Part shown: in pieces, positions 13,565-32,497 of the stretch | Position numbering within the stretch: position 1 is the first letter of the stretch | Layout: every line of letters starts with the position of its first letter | Assembly (NCBI GenBank): GCA_013348845.1 | Contig: CP054675.1 | Coordinates: 248,001 to 312,000, forward strand | Origin: Candidatus Tepidiaquacella proteinivora | GTDB lineage: Bacteria > Bacteroidota > Ignavibacteria > Tepidaquicellales > Tepidaquicellaceae | Length of the DNA: 64,000 nucleotides | Direction: 5' to 3' | Notes under the pieces: model-generated | Told to the model about the DNA's origin: nothing | The model's database searches: none | Seen by the model: only the letters and a program-made list of their open reading frames with translations | Made by a program: the position numbers and the translations under genes

Positions 13565-15292
13565 TTATTTTAGCAAAATCATTTTCTTTACTTCATTAAA
13601 ATCATTTCCGTTATTTATAATTAACCGATAGAAATAAATTCCGCTTGGAATTTCATTACCATTAAAGGTATATTTATAATTTCCCGATGTTTGAAATTCA
13701 TTTACCAGTGTTTTAATAACTTTTCCTGTTATATCAAAAACTTCAAGTGTAACAAAAGAATTCCTGTATAAGTCGTATGCTATTTCGGTATTTGGATTAA
13801 ATGGATTGGGATAATTTTGATATAATTTGTATGTTAATTGTGTTTCATTATTATTGATTCCGCTTGATTGAGTTACAAATATATAACTTGTTTTAATTAA
13901 AGTATCTGAACCCAGAAGATTTGCAGCAACAAGTTTGACTTCGTATATTCCACTATTTAAATATTTAATACCGGTCGGATTTTGTGCTTGTGAGCTTGAT
14001 GGGGTTGCTCCTGTGAAAGTCCATTCCCAGCTTGTTGGTGAATAAGATGATTGGTCATAGAAATTAACAGAATCTCCGGCAAAAATATCTCTTGAACTAA
14101 CTCTGAAATCAGCGACTGGTTTTCTGTTTATATTAGGTTTATAAGCGGTTATCTGATAACCACTGCCAATTGTTATAAAAATACCTTCCTTTCCAATAGG
14201 GCATCCGGAATAATAAATATATGGAATATTAAGTTGCCATTTAATTGTCTGAAGGTCTGGTGTAAAAGCAAAATATCTGCCATTAGCAGCTTCTACTGTA
14301 TTTACATAAATTGTGGAATCATAATCGACTGTAACATACCCTGCTAAAGTATTAACTGAATCTATAACCTGACCGTTTAAACCATTTACTCTCATCAGTT
14401 TACCGCTGCTTATACCATTATTAACATTGGCGCAATATAAGATATTGTTAGGACCGAACGATTTTACAAGAACAGCAGGAGTTAAAGTCCACTTTTGAGT
14501 AAATCCTGTACCATTATCAATAAAAGCGTGAAGTGAGCCACCATCTCTTGCAATATATATAGTTCCATCAGGTCCTACAACTAAATCGTTTTCCTGGTCT
14601 CCATCACCCGGAAGTGCATCAGACATATATTTAGTTAATCCTGTATTTATGTCAATCGCAATAAGTTTTTTAGGTGTTGTAATTGATCCTGTCCAGTGAT
14701 AATATGTATTACCATAAACAACATAACCACCATCAGGGCTTACCGGTATAATATAATTATTCGTCCATTTTGGCACACCGGTTTTTCTATCCAATCTTTT
14801 CTGAAATATGATTGGATCACCATCTGGAGCAAAGCATATACCGGTATTTCCGGGAAACATATCTGCGCTAATCCACCATTTTACAGAACCATCGGATATA
14901 TTCAAAGCGTATAGTTTCATATCTTTATAATCATGCGCATATACTGCATCTTCTGTGAAACCAACCGCGTACATCCTTGCGCTATCTGATACCGTCTTTT
15001 GCCATATAAGTTCTCCGTTAAATAAATTTCTAAGTTCTATTATACCTTTATATGGAGAAAGTATAACTCTGGAAGTAACAAACTTATCACCAAAAGTATA
15101 TACAGCATTTCCCCATGCTGTATAATTAGTGCTATTCACCGACCAGAACGGAGTGGAAACACTAATTGGTCCCGTCATTTTGGTCACACCATTTTTCTGA
15201 TTATTTCCGGCAAAAGTGTACCAATTCTGAGAATAAGAATTAAAATAAATAACAAATATAAAAATAATTACAGCAAAAAATATTTTTTTCAT
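13565..15292 (-). CDS. T9SS-sorted PQQ-type beta-propeller protein with PKD domain
   Basis: Secreted protein of 575 residues. Signal peptide at 1-21 ('IFVIYFNSYSQ'); a pyrrolo-quinoline-quinone-like beta-propeller from about 25 to 390, with repeats such as 'YALNISDGSVKWW' and 'DPIIFQKRLDRKTGVPKW'; a PKD domain at 391-475 ('SWEWTFTGATPSSSQAQNP'); and a T9SS type A sorting domain at 488-575 opening with 'YQNYPNPFNPNTEIAYDL' and ending 'KKMILLK'. The sorting domain should be cleaved on export through the SprA-type channel and the protein fixed to the surface or released. The ligand is unknown. A TAnnTTTG-type box (TATATTTG) lies 16 bases before the start. Convergent with the TPM gene. Confidence 0.88.
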   Translation of the reverse strand: MKKIFFAVIIFIFVIYFNSYSQNWYTFAGNNQKNGVTKMTGPISVSTPFWSVNSTNYTAWGNAVYTFGDKFVTSRVILSPYKGIIELRNLFNGELIWQKTVSDSARMYAVGFTEDAVYAHDYKDMKLYALNISDGSVKWWISADMFPGNTGICFAPDGDPIIFQKRLDRKTGVPKWTNNYIIPVSPDGGYVVYGNTYYHWTGSITTPKKLIAIDINTGLTKYMSDALPGDGDQENDLVVGPDGTIYIARDGGSLHAFIDNGTGFTQKWTLTPAVLVKSFGPNNILYCANVNNGISSGKLMRVNGLNGQVIDSVNTLAGYVTVDYDSTIYVNTVEAANGRYFAFTPDLQTIKWQLNIPYIYYSGCPIGKEGIFITIGSGYQITAYKPNINRKPVADFRVSSRDIFAGDSVNFYDQSSYSPTSWEWTFTGATPSSSQAQNPTGIKYLNSGIYEVKLVAANLLGSDTLIKTSYIFVTQSSGINNNETQLTYKLYQNYPNPFNPNTEIAYDLYRNSFVTLEVFDITGKVIKTLVNEFQTSGNYKYTFNGNEIPSGIYFYRLIINNGNDFNEVKKMILLK

Positions 15293-16394: not shown

Positions 16395-18812
16395 TTAATT
16401 AGCTGGGGAAATTTTTAATAATTTTCCTTCGCCGGGGTTAAATAGTGCAATAGTTATATATCCTGAATTATTTTTGTTAAAAGTAGTAAGTAATGAATCA
16501 TTAGCTATATCAGTGATTTTCCAATTATCATATTTGGGTAGAAACGCGGGATTAAATTTTATCTCAAGTATTCTTAAATCTCCATCGTTGTTAATATTCG
16601 GGAAGGTTCGTTTATTTACTACATATAAAAATTTACTTAATTCATTTTTGTTGGTAGAATTAAAAAATCCTAATTCCCAGTATCTTTCTTCGGGGCAATC
16701 ATAGTATTTGTTAATTCCTCCACCGGACATACATGGATTAACGCCTGAAATTAATGGTGCCATACTTCTTATATCAGAAACATAAGAGTACGGTAAGCCC
16801 TGAAATTGTGCCGGATACGATACTGAGTTTACAGTAATAGTATTTTCGTGTTTTAAATGTTTATCTAATGAGTCATACGGATACATATAGTTTCCAATAA
16901 CCTGTAATTTTCTATTCAGTTCAGAAATGTAATTCCATTTTTCCTGATAATAATAATTATAGAATCTTTTATTACTATAATTATCTGTGTTGGAAGTTGT
17001 AAGACCCATATTATAACAAAAGCCGGAAGCTTCTTTTCTTTGTTGCGATGTTGTGTAAGAAAATTCAAGTAATATTTTTGCACCGTGTGCTAAAGAAATA
17101 TTAAGAATAGCCGAAATTTCTTCACAGGTAGGCTCTCGTAATCCCCAATCATCAGGACCGCCGGTTCCTTTAATTAAACTTTCATCACTATTAATTTGAT
17201 TTACAACTGCATAAATCAAACCAAGACTCTTGGCTTTCTCTATGTAATATTTATGTTGTCTGACATACCAGGAAAAGGCAGATTGAATGCTATTCTGACT
17301 GTATGTGTAATCATCATAATTGTTTGCTTTTCTAAAAAATCTTGTGGCAGGGAATGAATCACTTTGATTGATTTTAAGGTTTGACGGATATTTAGTATTA
17401 TAAAAAACCGGAAACCATTGAGTTAACATAATATCTGAAATAGCGCCAATTTTAAAAGCAAAATTAATACAACTATCCCATAAAGCAAGATTATTATCTT
17501 CTTTATATTTTAAACCCGACCATCCCATAAAAGCGATAGGATCTGTGAGAAATATTAAAGAAAACTTATTATCAGAATATTCTTTGACAAGGCGATTTAC
17601 TTCCGCGATACATTCTAAATTTGCAAACTGTACTTCATCAATCCAGAAACAAGCAAGACCATCCACATTTTTAAAAGCATTTACTTCTTCCCAGATTCGT
17701 TCCCTGAATTTCCATATATTATAACTGGGATATGAAAAACCAACCTGCCAGGTATCAGTAAATAAATAATGAGCCCATGCGTCATCTACTCTTACATAAT
17801 CCAGGCATACATCAACTTTACCAAGCCATTTAACAATGTAATCTACTTTACAGGTTTCAACTTTGCCGGCTCCGATAGCTAATGAATCTGCTTTTACTGA
17901 CAGGTAATTTACAGAATCCTGAAAGTTATAATATCTCTCTAAGTATTGCCCGTTATATTGGGGATTGGCAGGATTTGAATAATCAATAAAGTTTTTACAT
18001 TTAATAAATGTTGAATCAATAATTTTTCCATCAAATCTTTTTATATATACAACGACAACGGTATCCTCCGGGTGGGATTTTGCGTAATCTGGATCAATTC
18101 TCATTCTTGGTTTTACAAACCATCTGTTATTATATTTAGGTTGCTTTATATCGGAGTATAATCTTCCATGACCAATGCTGTTTATGTTATCATCCACAAT
18201 AGTTAGGTCATTTACCTGTCCCAGGTTTTCAATTAAATTCTTTACTATGTAGCCGGGTTTATCTCTTCCTTTTATACACTTACGTGCTGTAACATTCTCA
18301 CCGAGCCAGAATTCGGTTGTGTCTTTTCCTGTCATATTTTCATTTGTATCATAACCGTAAGCAGGGAATCTTGTTATCCAGTTTTTTTTGCCCTGTTGTT
18401 CTGCCTGATAGGTAAATCGCTGTCCGTAAGCAGGTCGCAATATTTTTTCTCTTTCCATTATGAGAGAATTTCTTCCGGATAAAAATTTCCATTGCATTAT
18501 TGCATTTCGAATAAAATCTGCATAATCAGATGAGTCTTCAAAAAAGCCACCATCTCGTTGTGATGTGTTTTTCCATTCTTTTGGAAGAAAATCAAAATGA
18601 CCACTATAATTTTGCATTATATTAAATGAAAGTGAATCATACCATTTTAGATGAGTTGGTGTTCTGAGTCTTTCTTCAAAAAAGAAATTCATAGGACCAA
18701 TATAAAATCCACGTGTTAAATCATTCCCGCTCTGCTGCTTTTCATTGGAAATTCCAAGTAATATTATTACCAAAGTTATTATAAGTAATGTTATTATTAT
18801 CCCTTTTCTCAT
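16395..18812 (-). CDS. Large exported protein of unknown family
   Basis: Not recognised. The chosen ATG gives 805 residues; an in-frame TTG at 18863 would add 17 basic residues but fits worse with an export signal. An N-terminal hydrophobic helix (about 4-22, 'IIITLLIITLVIILLGI') is a signal peptide or anchor. The rest is soluble and rich in aromatic residues. The central segment 'GLACFWIDEVQFANLECIA' and the later 'IFLTDPIAFMGWSGLKY' alternate beta-like and acidic turns as in TIM-barrel glycosidases, and the end ('ITIALFNPGEGKLLKISP') looks like a terminal beta-sandwich strand. A secreted glycoside hydrolase-like enzyme is therefore possible, not shown. It has no T9SS sorting domain, unlike its neighbours. 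Confidence 0.75.
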   Translation of the reverse strand: MRKGIIITLLIITLVIILLGISNEKQQSGNDLTRGFYIGPMNFFFEERLRTPTHLKWYDSLSFNIMQNYSGHFDFLPKEWKNTSQRDGGFFEDSSDYADFIRNAIMQWKFLSGRNSLIMEREKILRPAYGQRFTYQAEQQGKKNWITRFPAYGYDTNENMTGKDTTEFWLGENVTARKCIKGRDKPGYIVKNLIENLGQVNDLTIVDDNINSIGHGRLYSDIKQPKYNNRWFVKPRMRIDPDYAKSHPEDTVVVVYIKRFDGKIIDSTFIKCKNFIDYSNPANPQYNGQYLERYYNFQDSVNYLSVKADSLAIGAGKVETCKVDYIVKWLGKVDVCLDYVRVDDAWAHYLFTDTWQVGFSYPSYNIWKFRERIWEEVNAFKNVDGLACFWIDEVQFANLECIAEVNRLVKEYSDNKFSLIFLTDPIAFMGWSGLKYKEDNNLALWDSCINFAFKIGAISDIMLTQWFPVFYNTKYPSNLKINQSDSFPATRFFRKANNYDDYTYSQNSIQSAFSWYVRQHKYYIEKAKSLGLIYAVVNQINSDESLIKGTGGPDDWGLREPTCEEISAILNISLAHGAKILLEFSYTTSQQRKEASGFCYNMGLTTSNTDNYSNKRFYNYYYQEKWNYISELNRKLQVIGNYMYPYDSLDKHLKHENTITVNSVSYPAQFQGLPYSYVSDIRSMAPLISGVNPCMSGGGINKYYDCPEERYWELGFFNSTNKNELSKFLYVVNKRTFPNINNDGDLRILEIKFNPAFLPKYDNWKITDIANDSLLTTFNKNNSGYITIALFNPGEGKLLKISPAN

Positions 18813-19008
18813 TTTTCTTTTAATAATTTTAGTTTTAATGTTGTTGTAGATATATTTTTTCAAACAACTTATGATGTTAATTTAGAAAAAAACATTTTTT
18901 AAATCTATATGTAAATATATAACAATATCAGTTATTAAATAGTAACATCAGGTTTTTTGTCATTTTAATGATTCTGTATTGAATTGTGATGATTATTTCT
19001 TCAGTATT

Positions 19009-20388
19009 TTATTTTATAAGAACCATCTTTTTCACATCAGAAAAATAAATATTTTTGTCTTTTATGATAATTTCATAAAAGTAAATACCACTCGATAATC
19101 GGAAAGAGTTAAAATTGATATTATATCTACCTTCAGATTTTAATTCATTAATTAGTGTTAATATTTCTTCACCGATTATATTATATATTTTTAGTTGCAC
19201 AAATCCCCCTTTTACGCAGTCAAACATAATATTTGTGGATTGATTAAAAGGATTAGGATAATTTTGATATAACTTAAAATCATCTGGAATTTCAGTTCCG
19301 ATTTTTTTTATGTTTGAAGGTATTCCTCTATACCAGATTTTTCCTTCAGAAGAACCGCAGTAAATTTTTGAGTCATTCCAATTATATAAACAATCAAACC
19401 AGACATTAGTATTTTCTTCTATTTCCCAATTAGTTCCTCCATTATAAGTAACAAGAATCGCACCAGTAGTCGGGGTACCGTGTACAGCCCAGCCAGTGTT
19501 ATTATCAATGAAAATTATGTCATTAATTTGTGAATAAGGAAACTGAACGACCGGGTTATTTTGAAAAACCCAATTTAAACCAAAATTAGTTGTCTTATAA
19601 ATATTTTTATGGTCTATATTACTACCTCCAATCCATCCCGTATTACCATTGAAGTAGATACATAATAAAGCGTTAACCCCATTGGAAGTTGGTGGAATAT
19701 TTGGAAAATAATTGATGAAATTTAAACCCCCATTTGTAGATTTCATCAAAAAGTTTTTACCACAAATAAAACCAGTATTAGCATCTAACCAGAATTGTCC
19801 GAAAAGTTCATTTTCATTTGAAGTTGAAGCTACAATTTCCTGCCAGTTAAGTCCTCCGTTTGTTGTCCTGATTATACAGGAATTAAAAGAAGCAGTTTTT
19901 CTACCTATTGCAATGCCAGTATTTGAATTAAAGAAATAGACAGAATTCAAAACCCCTGAGACAGGTGGGGGTATTTGTCTTACCCAATTAAAGCCACCGT
20001 TTGTGGTTTTCCTTATTTGCATTGCACCACCAACAACCCATCCTGTAAGTGAATTAACAAAATGAATTCCATTAAATAAAGTAGTAAATGTTGTATCATT
20101 AAAAGAAATTTCTAACCAATTTAAACCACTATTTGTTGATATGATAATTCCCATTCCGGTGTGTGTAGCATACGCAAAAGGTAATGGGAAGAATATATCA
20201 GTAATTTGATTTGTAATGGGAGTTTGAATATACTCCCATATAATCGGATTATTTGCTATTTTATTGCTGTTATTATACTTTGCAGCAGGTATGAATAAAT
20301 TGCAGTCATAATAATAGGAATAATTTTGCGGAAAACTAAAATCAGAAAATGAAAAAATTATTAATATTATTAATAATGCCCTTTTCAT
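19009..20388 (-). CDS. T9SS-sorted YCF48/BNR-repeat propeller protein
   Basis: Secreted 459-residue protein. Signal peptide at about 1-20 ('IFSFSDFSFPQN'); several YCF48/BNR-like propeller repeats between about 60 and 350 with the signature 'TTNGGFNW', 'TTNGGLNW', 'STNGGLNF' and 'TTNFGLNW', each next to 'NTGWVVGG'-type strands; and a T9SS type A sorting domain at 371-459 ('YQNYPNPFNQSTNIMFD', ending 'KKMVLIK'). In this domain the usual FNPxT reads FNQST. Such proteins are common surface adhesin-like or structural proteins in Ignavibacteria-type genomes; the ligand is unknown. Same strand as the flanking gene at 20505 but 116 bases away. Confidence 0.87.
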   Translation of the reverse strand: MKRALLIILIIFSFSDFSFPQNYSYYYDCNLFIPAAKYNNSNKIANNPIIWEYIQTPITNQITDIFFPLPFAYATHTGMGIIISTNSGLNWLEISFNDTTFTTLFNGIHFVNSLTGWVVGGAMQIRKTTNGGFNWVRQIPPPVSGVLNSVYFFNSNTGIAIGRKTASFNSCIIRTTNGGLNWQEIVASTSNENELFGQFWLDANTGFICGKNFLMKSTNGGLNFINYFPNIPPTSNGVNALLCIYFNGNTGWIGGSNIDHKNIYKTTNFGLNWVFQNNPVVQFPYSQINDIIFIDNNTGWAVHGTPTTGAILVTYNGGTNWEIEENTNVWFDCLYNWNDSKIYCGSSEGKIWYRGIPSNIKKIGTEIPDDFKLYQNYPNPFNQSTNIMFDCVKGGFVQLKIYNIIGEEILTLINELKSEGRYNINFNSFRLSSGIYFYEIIIKDKNIYFSDVKKMVLIK

Positions 20389-20504: not shown

Positions 20505-23500
20505 TCAAAAATTATAACCAAATAATACTCCAAAATACAACCGCCATTCTTTACCATAAGTTACTTTTTCTCCTCTGAAAGTTTTGGTGAACTTATCAAA
20601 TCCGTAGGCAGCATTGAAAAATATACTTGTTGGAAAAGCATAAAAAGAAAATGCTTGTAATCTGATTTCAATGCCGGCGTCTTTTTTTAATTCATTTAAA
20701 TGAACTTTATCTTCTTCCCATGCATCACCAATATCAGCATAAAGACCTAAATATAATTTATCGAAATACAAGGGTGAAATTCTCAAGTCTATATTTTCGA
20801 AAAGAGGGAATCTGTAAGTGATATTTAAAGATGCAATTCTTCCACCCCCAAGGGCAAAGAATGGATAGCCTTTCATCCCTGTAATTCCTGAAACATATAA
20901 ATTGTAAAAATTATCTACCTCCGGTCCAAAAATAGTTCCACCTCTTAATTTCAATGATAGTGAATGTTGGTTGTTGAATAGTCCGAATGATTCAATCCAC
21001 TCTCCTTCAAGTTTATGAAGTTTGTTGTGAGTGTATTTTGTTATGATTGAACCGTCATTTTCGACGGTGTATTCAGGGTTAATGTCACTGGATTCGTAAT
21101 CATATCTTATGAAAAATTTTCTTCCGATTGGGTTTATATCTGTGTTTCTTGTTCGTAAATAAGAAGAATAATCATAAATAAGAGAAAAACTATGTGCTTT
21201 AAAATAATCCTGTGAAGAACCTCTGACTGAAATTCCACTACTCGGGATTAAAAATGGGTCAATGCTTGATTGATATTTATTATAACCATATTCAAATCTT
21301 AGAAGATGGTTATCATTGAAAATATTCATTTCCATTCCAAGAATAAACGCAAGTAAATTGTATTCTACACCAACATTTATTGAATCAATACCTGCAATAA
21401 CTTCAGCATCTGCTTTACGGGTAACATTATAACCTTCAAAAAATAATTTTGGAGAGAAACTAAATTTTTTTATCAGGAAATCTTTAGCGACAGGGAAGCC
21501 ATTGTCGTAGGTGAACTGAAGAAATAAGTCCCTTTCCATTTTTCTATTGATAAAAGCACCACCAAAGATGGAAAATCTTGTCATTAATTCATCTGAATAA
21601 AAATATAAACCGGGCTTAATAGCATCAAGTATTTTATTATCTTTAGTATAGTTGTCAAATCTTATAACAGGGAATATGGATAGTTGATTAAAAATCGTTT
21701 TGTAATTACTATAGTTATAGTCTTTAACTGTTTTGTCGTCAAAGTTTTTGAGCTTATGCCAGTTAAATTTGTTTTTCTCAGTATTGGGAAGTGAATCTAT
21801 ATTTGCATACTTTTCGATGAGTCGTGATGGTGGAATGTAATTTTTAATTTGTGAGTTCTCAAAGTTACTAATATTTTTTAATTCTTCTATCTTAAATCCG
21901 GTAGAGTAGTAAGAAGAGTAAACGATGTTATCATTATTATCAAAAGAAGGCATAAAAGCACCCCCTAATACATTTGTAATCTGTTTTATTTCTTTTGATT
22001 CAAAATCATATCTATATATATTGAATATTCCCGTTTTGTTGCAGGAGAAGTAAATAAATTTGCCATCTTTAGAAAATTCAGGATTCCTGAAGTCAGTTTC
22101 CCGCTCATTTAAAAGGAAATAAAAATTTTTCGTTTCTAAATCCAGATATGCAATTTTTCTTGCTTCCTCAAGAGAATATTCAAAAATAATCAGTTTTCCA
22201 CCAGGAGAAAATTTTGGGTTATAAAGTTGCTCACCATTGCTGAAATCAGTTAGTCTCTGAGGGTTTTTTGCTTTTTCATCTGCTATCTCTAAATTTATTG
22301 TACCATCGTTGTTTACAAGATACGCTATCTTTTTACCATCCGGAGAGTATGAAGGTGAAGTAGCACGTTTATTTTCAGTTAATTTTTCTTGCTTTTTCGT
22401 TTTAATATTGTATTCATATAAATCATATATGGTTATGCCGTCAAGTTTTGGTGGTATATCCCTTTCAGAGAAAATGATTTTCTCTCCATCTGGTGACCAT
22501 GAAAAATATGAAACCGGAAACCCTAATTCTTCCTTGATTTTTGTTGTTCTATCATAGATAACAAGGCGTGTTAGTGAAAAATCATGCCCCTTGTTAGTAA
22601 GATAAGCAATTTTTTTCCCATCGGGAGAATATTTCGGGGAGAAATTGGCAAATCCATCAGTCTCAATAATATCACCAGATATTTTTGTTTCTTTAACACC
22701 TTTTAATCTCTTCGAGTAATCTTTTTTAAGAAATTCTTTCCATTCGTTGTATAATTCATTTCCGCTTTTACCTATGATTTTTTGTAAAGCATTATCAAAA
22801 CTGAAATTAAAAAATTTTGATAATCCATAAGTTATTTCTCTTAATTTTTCTTCTCCGTATTTCTCTGAAATATATCGAACAAGTGCATATCCTGAGTTAT
22901 AAATTGATTCTGCTTTTAATGAAGTAATTGAAGAAAACTGTCCTATCTCGTTGTATGAAAGCATATTATCATCTTCAATGTACATTCTTAATATCATATC
23001 CCGTTGAGCATCCCAGTGATCGTACCCTAATGCCTGTCTTTGATATTGCGCAGTACCTTCGGCAAACCATGCAGGTACATTTATACCTGAAATAGGATAA
23101 GAAACAATAGCATTTGGGTAGCCATAAAGAACATCAGGTCTTCTTTCCTTTTCATAATTTAACCATTGTAAATAAATCGCAGGTATTTTTCTTGAAAATT
23201 TCATTGATGCCTGTAATTGAACCATATGAGTGAACTCATGTGTAATAACATTTCTGAGCCAATTGTGTGTTCCTCTTAATTCAAAATCAAGTGCAGACGC
23301 AAAAATTTCTATTCTGTTATTAAAAAAATCAGTTGCTCCATTGGAAATATCAGATAAATCATTAACTATGATATTGGTTTTTGTATCAGGTTTGTAATTA
23401 TATAATGATGTAATAGGTCCATAAATTTCCTCTGATATTTTCGCTGTAAGCTTTGCAGTTCTTTCAGAGCCTTTATGGAAAACTATATTGAAATTCTCTG

Positions 23501-23624
23501 TCTCTATTGTGTACCAATTTATATCGGGGTGGGGTTCAAATTGTGGTAATGCCTGGAGCGGTATTAAGATTATTAATAGTATTAGGAATTTTTGTTTCAA
23601 GGTATTATAAGTTAGATTAAACAT
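20505..23624 (-). CDS. Outer-membrane fusion: gluzincin-type peptidase domain, PD40/TolB propeller, BamA-like barrel
   Basis: A 1039-residue envelope protein with three parts. (1) After a signal peptide (about 1-28), a metalloprotease-like domain with 'HEFTH' (H129, E130, H133) and downstream 'WFAEGTAQY' supplying E189, the gluzincin pattern of the peptidase MA family. (2) About 325-610, five to six PD40/TolB-type repeats ('YSPDGKKIAYL', 'WSPDGEKIIFSE', 'FSPGGKLIIFEYS'). (3) About 680-1039, a beta-barrel resembling bacterial surface antigen (BamA/TamA) domains, ending in an aromatic residue ('FGVLFGYNF'), which suits BAM insertion. All putative zinc ligands are present. It is divergent from sprA. 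Precise role unknown; envelope proteolysis or outer-membrane assembly is an inference. A strong AAGGAGGT lies 22 bases before the ATG. Confidence 0.85.
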   Translation of the reverse strand: MFNLTYNTLKQKFLILLIILIPLQALPQFEPHPDINWYTIETENFNIVFHKGSERTAKLTAKISEEIYGPITSLYNYKPDTKTNIIVNDLSDISNGATDFFNNRIEIFASALDFELRGTHNWLRNVITHEFTHMVQLQASMKFSRKIPAIYLQWLNYEKERRPDVLYGYPNAIVSYPISGINVPAWFAEGTAQYQRQALGYDHWDAQRDMILRMYIEDDNMLSYNEIGQFSSITSLKAESIYNSGYALVRYISEKYGEEKLREITYGLSKFFNFSFDNALQKIIGKSGNELYNEWKEFLKKDYSKRLKGVKETKISGDIIETDGFANFSPKYSPDGKKIAYLTNKGHDFSLTRLVIYDRTTKIKEELGFPVSYFSWSPDGEKIIFSERDIPPKLDGITIYDLYEYNIKTKKQEKLTENKRATSPSYSPDGKKIAYLVNNDGTINLEIADEKAKNPQRLTDFSNGEQLYNPKFSPGGKLIIFEYSLEEARKIAYLDLETKNFYFLLNERETDFRNPEFSKDGKFIYFSCNKTGIFNIYRYDFESKEIKQITNVLGGAFMPSFDNNDNIVYSSYYSTGFKIEELKNISNFENSQIKNYIPPSRLIEKYANIDSLPNTEKNKFNWHKLKNFDDKTVKDYNYSNYKTIFNQLSIFPVIRFDNYTKDNKILDAIKPGLYFYSDELMTRFSIFGGAFINRKMERDLFLQFTYDNGFPVAKDFLIKKFSFSPKLFFEGYNVTRKADAEVIAGIDSINVGVEYNLLAFILGMEMNIFNDNHLLRFEYGYNKYQSSIDPFLIPSSGISVRGSSQDYFKAHSFSLIYDYSSYLRTRNTDINPIGRKFFIRYDYESSDINPEYTVENDGSIITKYTHNKLHKLEGEWIESFGLFNNQHSLSLKLRGGTIFGPEVDNFYNLYVSGITGMKGYPFFALGGGRIASLNITYRFPLFENIDLRISPLYFDKLYLGLYADIGDAWEEDKVHLNELKKDAGIEIRLQAFSFYAFPTSIFFNAAYGFDKFTKTFRGEKVTYGKEWRLYFGVLFGYNF

Positions 23625-23858
23625 AGAGTCAATGTATTACTATATAACCTCCTTTTTAAAAATTAAACCGATTATTCTCCATAAAAGTTTTATTCTAAAA
23701 ATATGAGTTTTCTTTATATTTAAAAGTCATTTATGAAATAATTCGTAAATTTTATTTTTATTTTGATTTTATTATTTATTTTCAATATGTTTTAATCAAA
23801 AAACAGGAGAGTAATATAGATATATATATACTATGTTGAAAATACTAAATTTTCAGAT

Positions 23859-23874
23859 AAACTATAGATAGTTT
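23859..23874 (+). repeat. Inverted repeat abutting the sprA start codon
   Basis: AAACTAT-AG-ATAGTTT is a perfect palindrome ending on the base before the TTG start of sprA. It could fold over the initiation region or be a protein-binding site. It is AT-rich and short, so chance is possible. A 12-codon frame (ATG at 23833, stop at 23869-23871) runs across it. Confidence 0.4.
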
Positions 23875-30473: not shown

Positions 30474-31490
30474 TCATTTAGAATATACCTTTATTTCACC
30501 ATTTACAATTTTATTCCGTATTTCTTCTACTTTTTTATGTATATTATCGGGAATTAAATGCTTATTATTTTCATCATATACATAATCTACACCTTTCTCT
30601 TTTAATCCTATATTTTTAATTCCGCCTTTAAAAGAATTATTTACATAATCTCTTGCAGCAAGTAGAATCATTTCATCAACTTGTTTGGTCATACTTGTAA
30701 GAATATATCCCGGTGCTTCTGACCATTGATTTAAATCTACACCAATTGCGAGTTTATTCATATCACGTGTTGCTTCGAAAACTCCTAAACCAGATAATCC
30801 GGATGCATGATAAATTATGTCTGCATTGTTATTATATTGTGTAATAGCAATTTCTTTTGCTTTGGGTGCATTTTTAAAACCTTCGCCAGTAACACTAATG
30901 TAAGAAACTAAAATATTGCAATCCGGACATACATATTTTACTCCATTTACAAATCCATCTTCGAATTTTTTAATCAGGGAGGACTGCATTCCACCAATGA
31001 AACCTACTGTTTTAGTTTTAGTTGTTAATCCGGCAATTGCACCTACTAAGAATGAACCTTCTTCTTCTTTAAATGTAATAGCAAGAAGATTTTGTGGTAT
31101 TTGTTTATTAGAATCTATAGTATAATCAATGCAAACAAATTTTTTGTCGGGAAATTCTTTCGCAATATTCGTAATATCATCGGTGAAAATAAAACCCACA
31201 CCGAAAATGAGTCCGATATCATTTTTAGCCGCTAATATTCTCAAAGCGGATTCCCTATCTGCACCATCTCCCGGGTCAATTACTTCAAAATCAATTCCTA
31301 ATTCTGCTTTTGCCCTTTCCAGTCCTTTGTATGCTGCATCATTAAAGGATTTATCACCCCTACCCCCAACATCAAATACTAAACCCAATTTCACCTTTTG
31401 AGATTGTTTTTCTCTTCTTGTGCAAGATATAAAAAATAATGAGGATAACAGAGTTATCAGGCAGATAATAATTATTAATTTTTTATTCAT
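30474..31490 (-). CDS. BMP-family nucleoside-binding lipoprotein (PnrA/TmpC-like)
   Basis: Substrate-binding lipoprotein of 338 residues for an ABC importer, of the basic membrane protein family whose best-known members (Treponema PnrA) bind purine nucleosides. Lipoprotein signal with Cys23 ('LFFISC'); then the two-lobe fold with the family hallmark 'DVGGRGDKSFNDAAYKGL' and 'IDYTIDSN', 'GFIGGMQ' and 'IGVDLNQWSEAPGYILTSM'. It follows tdk on the same strand after 18 bases and cdd before that, so a nucleoside ligand is well supported by context. No permease or ATPase partner is seen nearby. The ligand itself is inferred. Confidence 0.88.
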   Translation of the reverse strand: MNKKLIIIICLITLLSSLFFISCTRREKQSQKVKLGLVFDVGGRGDKSFNDAAYKGLERAKAELGIDFEVIDPGDGADRESALRILAAKNDIGLIFGVGFIFTDDITNIAKEFPDKKFVCIDYTIDSNKQIPQNLLAITFKEEEGSFLVGAIAGLTTKTKTVGFIGGMQSSLIKKFEDGFVNGVKYVCPDCNILVSYISVTGEGFKNAPKAKEIAITQYNNNADIIYHASGLSGLGVFEATRDMNKLAIGVDLNQWSEAPGYILTSMTKQVDEMILLAARDYVNNSFKGGIKNIGLKEKGVDYVYDENNKHLIPDNIHKKVEEIRNKIVNGEIKVYSK

Positions 31491-31508
31491 TGTCTTAAAT
31501 TAATTTGA

Positions 31509-32093
31509 TTATTCTGATACAGTATGGTGTAATCTACATCTGGCTTCGTAATGGTCTTTACCTCCGACAAGCACTCTATCTGACTCTTTAGTTACTCTTT
31601 GTGTCCTATTTGCAGGAGCACCACATACCACACACACAGCATGTATTTTTGTTATGTATTCTGCTATTGCAAGTAATTGTGGAATTGGTTCAAAAGGTTT
31701 TGCTCTGTAATCCTGATCTAAACCAGCAACTATGACTCGCTTTCCGGAATCAGCTAACATTTGACATACTTCAATTAAATCATTATCAAAAAATTGTGCT
31801 TCATCAATACCAATTACTTCATAGTCGAAACATTTATCAGGTATATCACTCGCTTTTTCCACAACTTCTGAGGGATAAGATTGTTCATTATGGGTTACAA
31901 TAGATGAATCACTGTATCTGTTATCAATTTTAGGTTTAAACACCTTAACCCTCTGTTTTGCAATTTCCGCTCTTCTAATTCTTCGGATTAATTCTTCTGT
32001 TTTGCCAGAAAACATACTTCCGCAGATTACTTCAATATGTCCGGATTTTTTATAGGTTCTTATTTGCAGGTGTTCATTCATTTCTGCTGTCAT
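31509..32093 (-). CDS. tdk: Thymidine kinase (type II)
   Basis: Phosphorylates thymidine with ATP in pyrimidine salvage, in the cytoplasm. The 194-residue protein has P-loop '[14 protein letters not shown]' (Lys31), 'DEAQFF' for the general-base glutamate, the lasso region with '[13 protein letters not shown]', and a structural zinc site completed by 'CRLHH'. The first ATG (32093) was kept; a second ATG four codons on is possible. Lies 17 bases after cdd and 18 before the nucleoside-binding lipoprotein gene on the same strand, forming a salvage operon. Firm. Confidence 0.95.
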
Positions 32094-32110
32094 AATGGTT
32101 CACTATTAAT

Positions 32111-32497
32111 TTATAAGTTAAATTTTTTGGGTAATAAATTTTTTAAATTAAAAATTTTAATATCTTTTTTATTCTTTATTAAAATAACTTTTAAATTAAT
32201 TGAAAATTCAGCCATAAATTGTAAACATGCACCACAGGGATAAAATATTTTATTTCGATTTGTTGATATTGCGATTGCAGTAAATCTTTTTTCTCCTTCT
32301 GATATGGCTTTAGCAAATGCAACTCTTTCAGCACATAATGTCAATGATAATGAAGAGATTTCAATATTACATCCGGTGTAAATTTTATTGGATTTTGTTA
32401 GAAGGGCAGCGCCTACTCTGAAACCTGAAAAGGGAGCGTAAGCGCTCTTCTTCGCTTTTATGGAGCTTTCTATTAATATATTAAAATTTTTATGCAT
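32111..32497 (-). CDS. cdd: Cytidine deaminase
   Basis: Zinc enzyme converting cytidine or deoxycytidine to uridine or deoxyuridine. The 128-residue protein is typical of the small tetrameric form. Zinc ligands Cys55, Cys88 and Cys91 and the catalytic Glu57 lie in 'CAERVAF' and 'PCGACLQFM'; the substrate loop 'GCNIEISSLSLT' corresponds to the usual GCNVENAS. PCGACLQ has Leu where many enzymes have Arg. First gene of the likely cdd-tdk-BMP operon. Confidence 0.94.
   Translation of the reverse strand: MHKNFNILIESSIKAKKSAYAPFSGFRVGAALLTKSNKIYTGCNIEISSLSLTLCAERVAFAKAISEGEKRFTAIAISTNRNKIFYPCGACLQFMAEFSINLKVILIKNKKDIKIFNLKNLLPKKFNL

Follow-up and report, generated by a model that had tools for sequence, protein, structure and literature searches.

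Most of what is established about the T9SS comes from Porphyromonas and Flavobacterium, and the N-terminal domains of Omp85 proteins are usually periplasmic. A WD40-Omp85 subfamily, in which a TolB-like propeller precedes the Omp85 barrel, was described by Heinz and Lithgow in 2014 (PMC4104836, cited here from excerpts), and the periplasmic zinc peptidase BepA is described, in the excerpts of a second paper, as both assisting and degrading its outer-membrane client (PMC8423444). Here we describe a gene which combines a propeller and an Omp85-type barrel with a predicted peptidase domain, and which appears to be an accessory component of the T9SS that has gone unnoticed.

This gene (the focal gene) lies in a window of 64,000 nucleotides, meaning the whole stretch of DNA that was analysed, within a source genome of 2.40 Mb in one contig; a search of genome contigs with it found 7 loci, all from close relatives mostly named Ignavibacteria bacteria. 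It is a single frame from ATG to TGA with a C-terminal Phe (Table 1), and open frames reached at most 169 codons when this stretch was shuffled 20 times, compared to its 1039 residues. A sequence-only reading had described a fusion of an HExxH protease-like domain, a PD40 propeller and a BamA-like barrel ending in Phe, with a gluzincin motif formed by H129, E130, H133 and E189; Pfam, motif and fold matches bear this fusion out, and the motif positions were exact. Peptidase_MA_2 (PF13485) matched the focal protein at 3.5e-10 (40.5 bits compared to a curated cut-off of 32.4) and was found in 37 of the 37 N-terminal domains scanned with Pfam. All four motif residues were invariant, as were W186 and G190, which flank E189, in an alignment of 72 distinct orthologues (31-83% identity) that leaves out duplicates, one fragment (L024) and paralogues. 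With HExxH and a downstream Glu conserved and PF13485 over its cut-off, the sequence has the marks of the peptidase MA clan (gluzincin type), and the gene probably encodes a zinc protease on an outer-membrane barrel. The fold of the protease domain is assigned from Pfam and the motif; a profile search for solved relatives (E up to 1) found none for this domain or for the barrel. The signal-peptide-like stretch has no lipobox Cys, and Gln28 was kept in at least 97% of the 72 orthologues. The PD40 match (8.7e-16) was above the curated Pfam cut-off, and about 400 residues follow the propeller. Pfam and NCBIfam scans of the protein found no T9SS cargo sorting domain (TIGR04183, PF18962, TIGR04131), Pfam found no patatin domain such as would mark a type Vd patatin autotransporter, and no NCBIfam model scored above its cut-off for the family.

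Table 1. Features of the focal gene and its immediate neighbours (window coordinates).
Feature	Position	Strand	Basis or remark
Focal gene: peptidase MA, TolB-like propeller and Omp85 barrel	20505..23624	-	1039 aa
Probable Sec signal peptide, residues 1-27	23544..23624	-	Sequence; cleavage site by eye
Peptidase MA domain, residues 28-314	22683..23543	-	Pfam PF13485
HEFTH zinc/catalytic motif (predicted), residues 129-133	23226..23240	-	H, E, H in 72/72 orthologues and both paralogues
E189 in WFAEG, presumed third zinc ligand	23058..23060	-	72/72 orthologues
TolB-like beta-propeller, residues 315-600	21825..22682	-	PD40; Z ~25 to TolB
Omp85-type barrel, residues 636-1039	20508..21719	-	Barrel model; Pfam in homologues
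sprA/sov, T9SS translocon, 2188 aa	23875..30441	+	TIGR04189, 1.3e-282
Divergent intergenic region, focal gene/sprA, 250 bp	23625..23874	.	Frame coordinates
BNR/Ycf48-like propeller protein with T9SS type A sorting domain, downstream neighbour	19009..20388	-	Pfam/NCBIfam

An AlphaFold2 model of the whole protein, made from eight sequences, was of modest confidence (pLDDT 64.9, pTM 0.49), and a fold search matched its residues 312-590 to TolB. Because the propeller filled this search, the last 440 residues were folded alone (pLDDT 66.8, pTM 0.63), giving a barrel of, as modelled, roughly sixteen strands which matched BamA and TamA (Z 17-19.6 over ~300 residues, rmsd 4-6; the best match was BamA, with Z 19.6 over 310 residues and rmsd 5.6) and also Sam50 barrels, and which thus folds as one in the model, as the sequence-only reading needed it to. 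Pfam gave no barrel match in the focal protein itself, and Omp85 (PF01103) matched 7 of the 37 homologous barrels (best 9.5e-9) and one same-genome paralogue (1.6e-12); it is from these homologues and the BamA/TamA/Sam50 fold matches that we call the barrel Omp85-type. The predicted grouping with BamA and TamA also fits the main rival to our preferred reading, a role in T9SS-barrel assembly, which we consider somewhat unlikely. The protein would then be an outer-membrane assembly or quality-control factor, with the barrel as insertase, the propeller replacing POTRA domains or BamB, and the protease removing stalled SprA, PorV or DUF5683 protein, much as BepA does for LptD. The excerpts of the two papers lend this idea precedents, in that the 2014 authors likened WD40-Omp85 proteins to a BamA-BamB fusion (PMC4104836) and that BepA is a periplasmic zinc metallopeptidase which promotes or degrades LptD on BAM (PMC8423444).

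The gene had been read as divergent from sprA, and it is (Table 1). The first sprA match lay 220-410 bp from the focal gene in its own family (f1), and the two genes were divergent in 22 of 22 own-family loci with enough upstream sequence (two further loci, which end at a contig edge, are outside this count) and in 7 of 7 loci of a second own-family set, which shares several genomes with the 22. A survey of this neighbourhood had been proposed, and it is conserved within the family but not generally, as in the sister family f32 sprA was divergent in 0 of 4 informative loci. We therefore rejected the sprA neighbourhood as the main general evidence for a T9SS link, since the divergent arrangement was seen in f1 only. 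The sequence-only reading had linked the gene to the T9SS by position alone; that position proved local to the family, but the link itself holds through adjacency to M6i, porU and porV in two classes and a near-perfect co-occurrence with M6i, both set out below. Six loci of other families chosen for closeness (L075-L080) had sprA a few kb downstream of the focal gene on the same strand, and in several of these families LptF/LptG-type genes lay on the opposite strand between a DUF5683 gene and sprA.

The downstream neighbour of the focal gene (Table 1) is, by its sorting domain, a predicted T9SS cargo and would be at most a candidate for a place in a module with the focal gene and M6i. A second protein with a T9SS type A sorting domain, carrying PQQ/PKD repeats, is encoded nearby (13565-15292), suggesting that T9SS cargo genes cluster here. 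An 822-aa ORF at 16395-18863 was without NCBIfam matches, and its one Pfam match (DUF7226, E 0.083) fell below the threshold. The region after sprA (30474-32497) encodes a PnrA-like BMP-family binding protein, a thymidine kinase and a 128-aa ORF, a block also found beside sprA in three other loci (L039, L042, L045).

Outside its own order (f1 and f32) the focal gene usually stands in the order porU-porV-M6i-focal-DUF5683, where M6i is NF052323, named by NCBIfam “T9SS-dependent M6-like inactivated metalloprotease”. NCBIfam identified the T9SS enzyme PorU (NF033707), the shuttle PorV (NF033710) and M6i in both L084 and L085, in which the downstream gene carries DUF5683 (a weak match in L084), and NCBIfam/Pfam place T9SS sorting domains on PorU and M6i. 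Among 20 loci read, which came from many families, M6i was the gene directly upstream in 16, and in one further locus a single gene separated the two; porU-porV-M6i-focal were contiguous in 10, most of the other loci ending before porU, and the DUF5683 gene (a cluster of ~300 aa) was directly downstream in 16. A conserved 219-aa ORF (c24) was seen directly upstream of the focal gene in L075 and L093, and in L075 it lies between the focal gene and M6i. For the class outside the own order, among the matches listed, 102 of 106 genomes had M6i upstream of the focal gene in the same orientation and at most 6 kb away, and the remaining 4 had the two genes on separate contigs (coordinates from 153 of 171 focal and 150 of 170 M6i genomes, own order included, with both in 138). 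In a second class, that of G042, M6i stood upstream within 6 kb, again in the orientation of the focal gene, in 102 of 105 genomes (coordinates of 105 focal and 105 M6i genes, with split matches merged or the nearest pieces taken). In the own order M6i was adjacent in 0 of 32 genomes, among the matches listed, suggesting that linkage is not needed for function, and in the source genome porU, porV and M6i lie together (873.7, 297.7 and 807.7 bits respectively) ~61 kb away from the focal gene. The simplest account is a move of this gene in its own order, which in f1 brought it next to sprA. The presence of barrel genes among its neighbours (porV, and sprA in the own family) would also suit an assembly factor.

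In 441 genomes the focal gene and M6i were both present in 281 and both absent from 157, with the focal gene alone in 2 and M6i alone in 1; these three genomes are fragmented into 200 to 440 contigs, and the 281 joint presences come from related genomes and are not 281 independent events. Presence of the focal gene was called at a best E of 1e-80 or below in the phylum and own-class samples and of 1e-60 or below, with the G042 query, in the class of G042; 19 further genomes of the phylum sample with weaker matches (3.6e-31 or worse) were treated as paralogue carriers. SprA was found in 91 of the 118 genomes of the phylum sample and the focal gene in 47, with M6i in the identical 47, and of the 145 genomes of the G042 class 143 had SprA and 105 had the focal gene, with M6i in precisely these 105. 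The own-class sample (235 genomes) had SprA in 234 and PorU in 233, compared to 171 with the focal gene and 170 with M6i, so SprA assembles without the focal gene; this, and the fact that the co-inherited partner is M6i and not a barrel, argue against an assembly factor. Both genes were missing together from 128 SprA-positive genomes, and so the module is not core; the focal gene itself was absent from 129 of the 411 SprA-positive genomes (out of 441, summed over the three samples), unlike a core component of the T9SS. Conversely, only 1 of 283 focal-positive genomes, the fragmented G413, had no SprA match (282 did), which agrees with the co-occurrence with the T9SS that the sequence-only reading had asked about. 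The gene thus has the restriction to T9SS genomes and the clustering with T9SS genes of an accessory part, most of the sampled genomes being SprA-positive anyway. The idea that the module replaces PorZ was rejected, as PorZ was found in 81 of the 118 genomes, including most module carriers.

Two distant same-genome paralogues with the peptidase-propeller architecture (L037:4803-7964 and L038:5254-8073) retain the H, E, H and E of the motif, and that of L038 is Omp85 by Pfam. No T9SS genes were found neighbouring either of them in the loci read, so this architecture extends beyond the T9SS and is not, on its own, a sign of it. Such paralogues, together with the own order, where linkage to porU-porV-M6i is lost, could be taken to mean that the link is one of history only and that the protein is a general envelope protease which happens to stay in the operon. 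This we already disfavour and hold to be very unlikely, because the co-occurrence (281 genomes with both genes compared to 3 with one alone) persists where linkage is broken, in f1 and f32, and because both genes were lost jointly within one genus (g57 of f22; 5 genomes with both, 7 with neither) while SprA was kept. Joint absence alongside joint presence was also found in families f30 and f54.

HExxH is lost from all 14 of the M6i sequences examined, whereas all 72 focal orthologues retain it. At the site of the HExxHxxG consensus of M6 proteases, M6i reads, for example, ASIASHLGLPDL. Thus M6i would be an exported dead protease tied to a motif-intact, membrane-tethered one. As to the client of the focal protein, which had been suggested to process or quality-check surface or secreted proteins, the data point first to M6i, before sorting-domain proteins in general.

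The domains, the conserved motif, the operon, the co-inheritance and the loss of HExxH from M6i are all observed, and they best fit an optional T9SS module which would comprise an outer-membrane-anchored zinc protease and an exported pseudoprotease, and which probably handles M6i or T9SS clients near PorU, PorV and SprA. From these we infer zinc catalysis, topology, contact with M6i and substrate as follows. The focal protein would be exported by Sec, its C-terminal barrel would sit in the outer membrane, and the zinc-peptidase domain and propeller would most probably face the periplasm, because the N-terminal domains of Omp85 proteins normally lie there. M6i, as a T9SS-sorted M6-type protease without HExxH, would be its obligate partner; docking would probably fall to the propeller and the effector role to the peptidase, which may trim, mature or clear M6i or M6i-marked clients at the PorU/PorV/SprA site. 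We judge the chances that this full explanation is correct to be about even. An unlikely variant would have the N-terminal domains pass through or around their own barrel, like the patatin of PlpD, and act as a surface protease beside the attachment complex (PorU, PorV and M6i). PorU and M6i carry sorting domains and should both end outside, and PlpD, according to the excerpts of the 2014 paper, uses an Omp85 barrel to bring its enzyme domain to the cell surface (PMC4104836), but propeller and protease together, at ~600 residues, would be a large load.

The T9SS in large parts of the Bacteroidota beyond the model species may, we tentatively suggest and would sooner doubt than assert, include a second proteolytic station. 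Alongside the sortase PorU, an active outer-membrane metalloprotease and an exported pseudoprotease would work as an obligate pair that matures or polices surface proteins, by a route with no known counterpart in Porphyromonas or Flavobacterium. Such a protease/pseudoprotease pair stands beside the sortase operon in many lineages, and work on the Porphyromonas and Flavobacterium models may never reveal it.

Compared to known systems, the focal protein has in common with the WD40-Omp85 proteins a propeller before an Omp85 barrel and no POTRA domain (PMC4104836), and we liken it to them by this architecture and not by membership of the published cluster. The text of that paper contains no occurrence of the word “peptidase” and gives no peptidase domain for the cluster, and its excerpts hold no T9SS link (PMC4104836). 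Its Omp85 “Metallo” subfamily likewise joins an enzyme domain to the barrel, but that domain is PF00149 and the one here is an HExxH peptidase (PMC4104836). TolB of Tol-Pal has the propeller fold in common with the focal protein (Z ~25), which is nevertheless below the TolB equivalog cut-off (TIGR02800, 104.9 compared to 343 bits), and NF052323 (M6i) is an operon partner co-inherited with the focal gene, a partner and not, as found here, a homologue. BepA of E. coli, an M48 zinc metallopeptidase which is periplasmic and located at outer-membrane assembly, offers a possible mode of work; unlike BepA the focal protein has no Pfam M48 match, and BepA, to our knowledge, carries no fused barrel. 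The open-licence literature searched yielded no paper on the T9SS with an M6 family metalloprotease, and none on a peptidase on a propeller-Omp85 protein, its pairing with M6i or its place in a porU-porV operon. Already known, then, are the propeller-Omp85 architecture (since 2014) and the tie of M6i to the T9SS, through the name given by NCBI curators; new, within the literature searched, is the functional context that the pair gives to WD40-Omp85 proteins, namely a peptidase domain, pairing with M6i and a T9SS operon.
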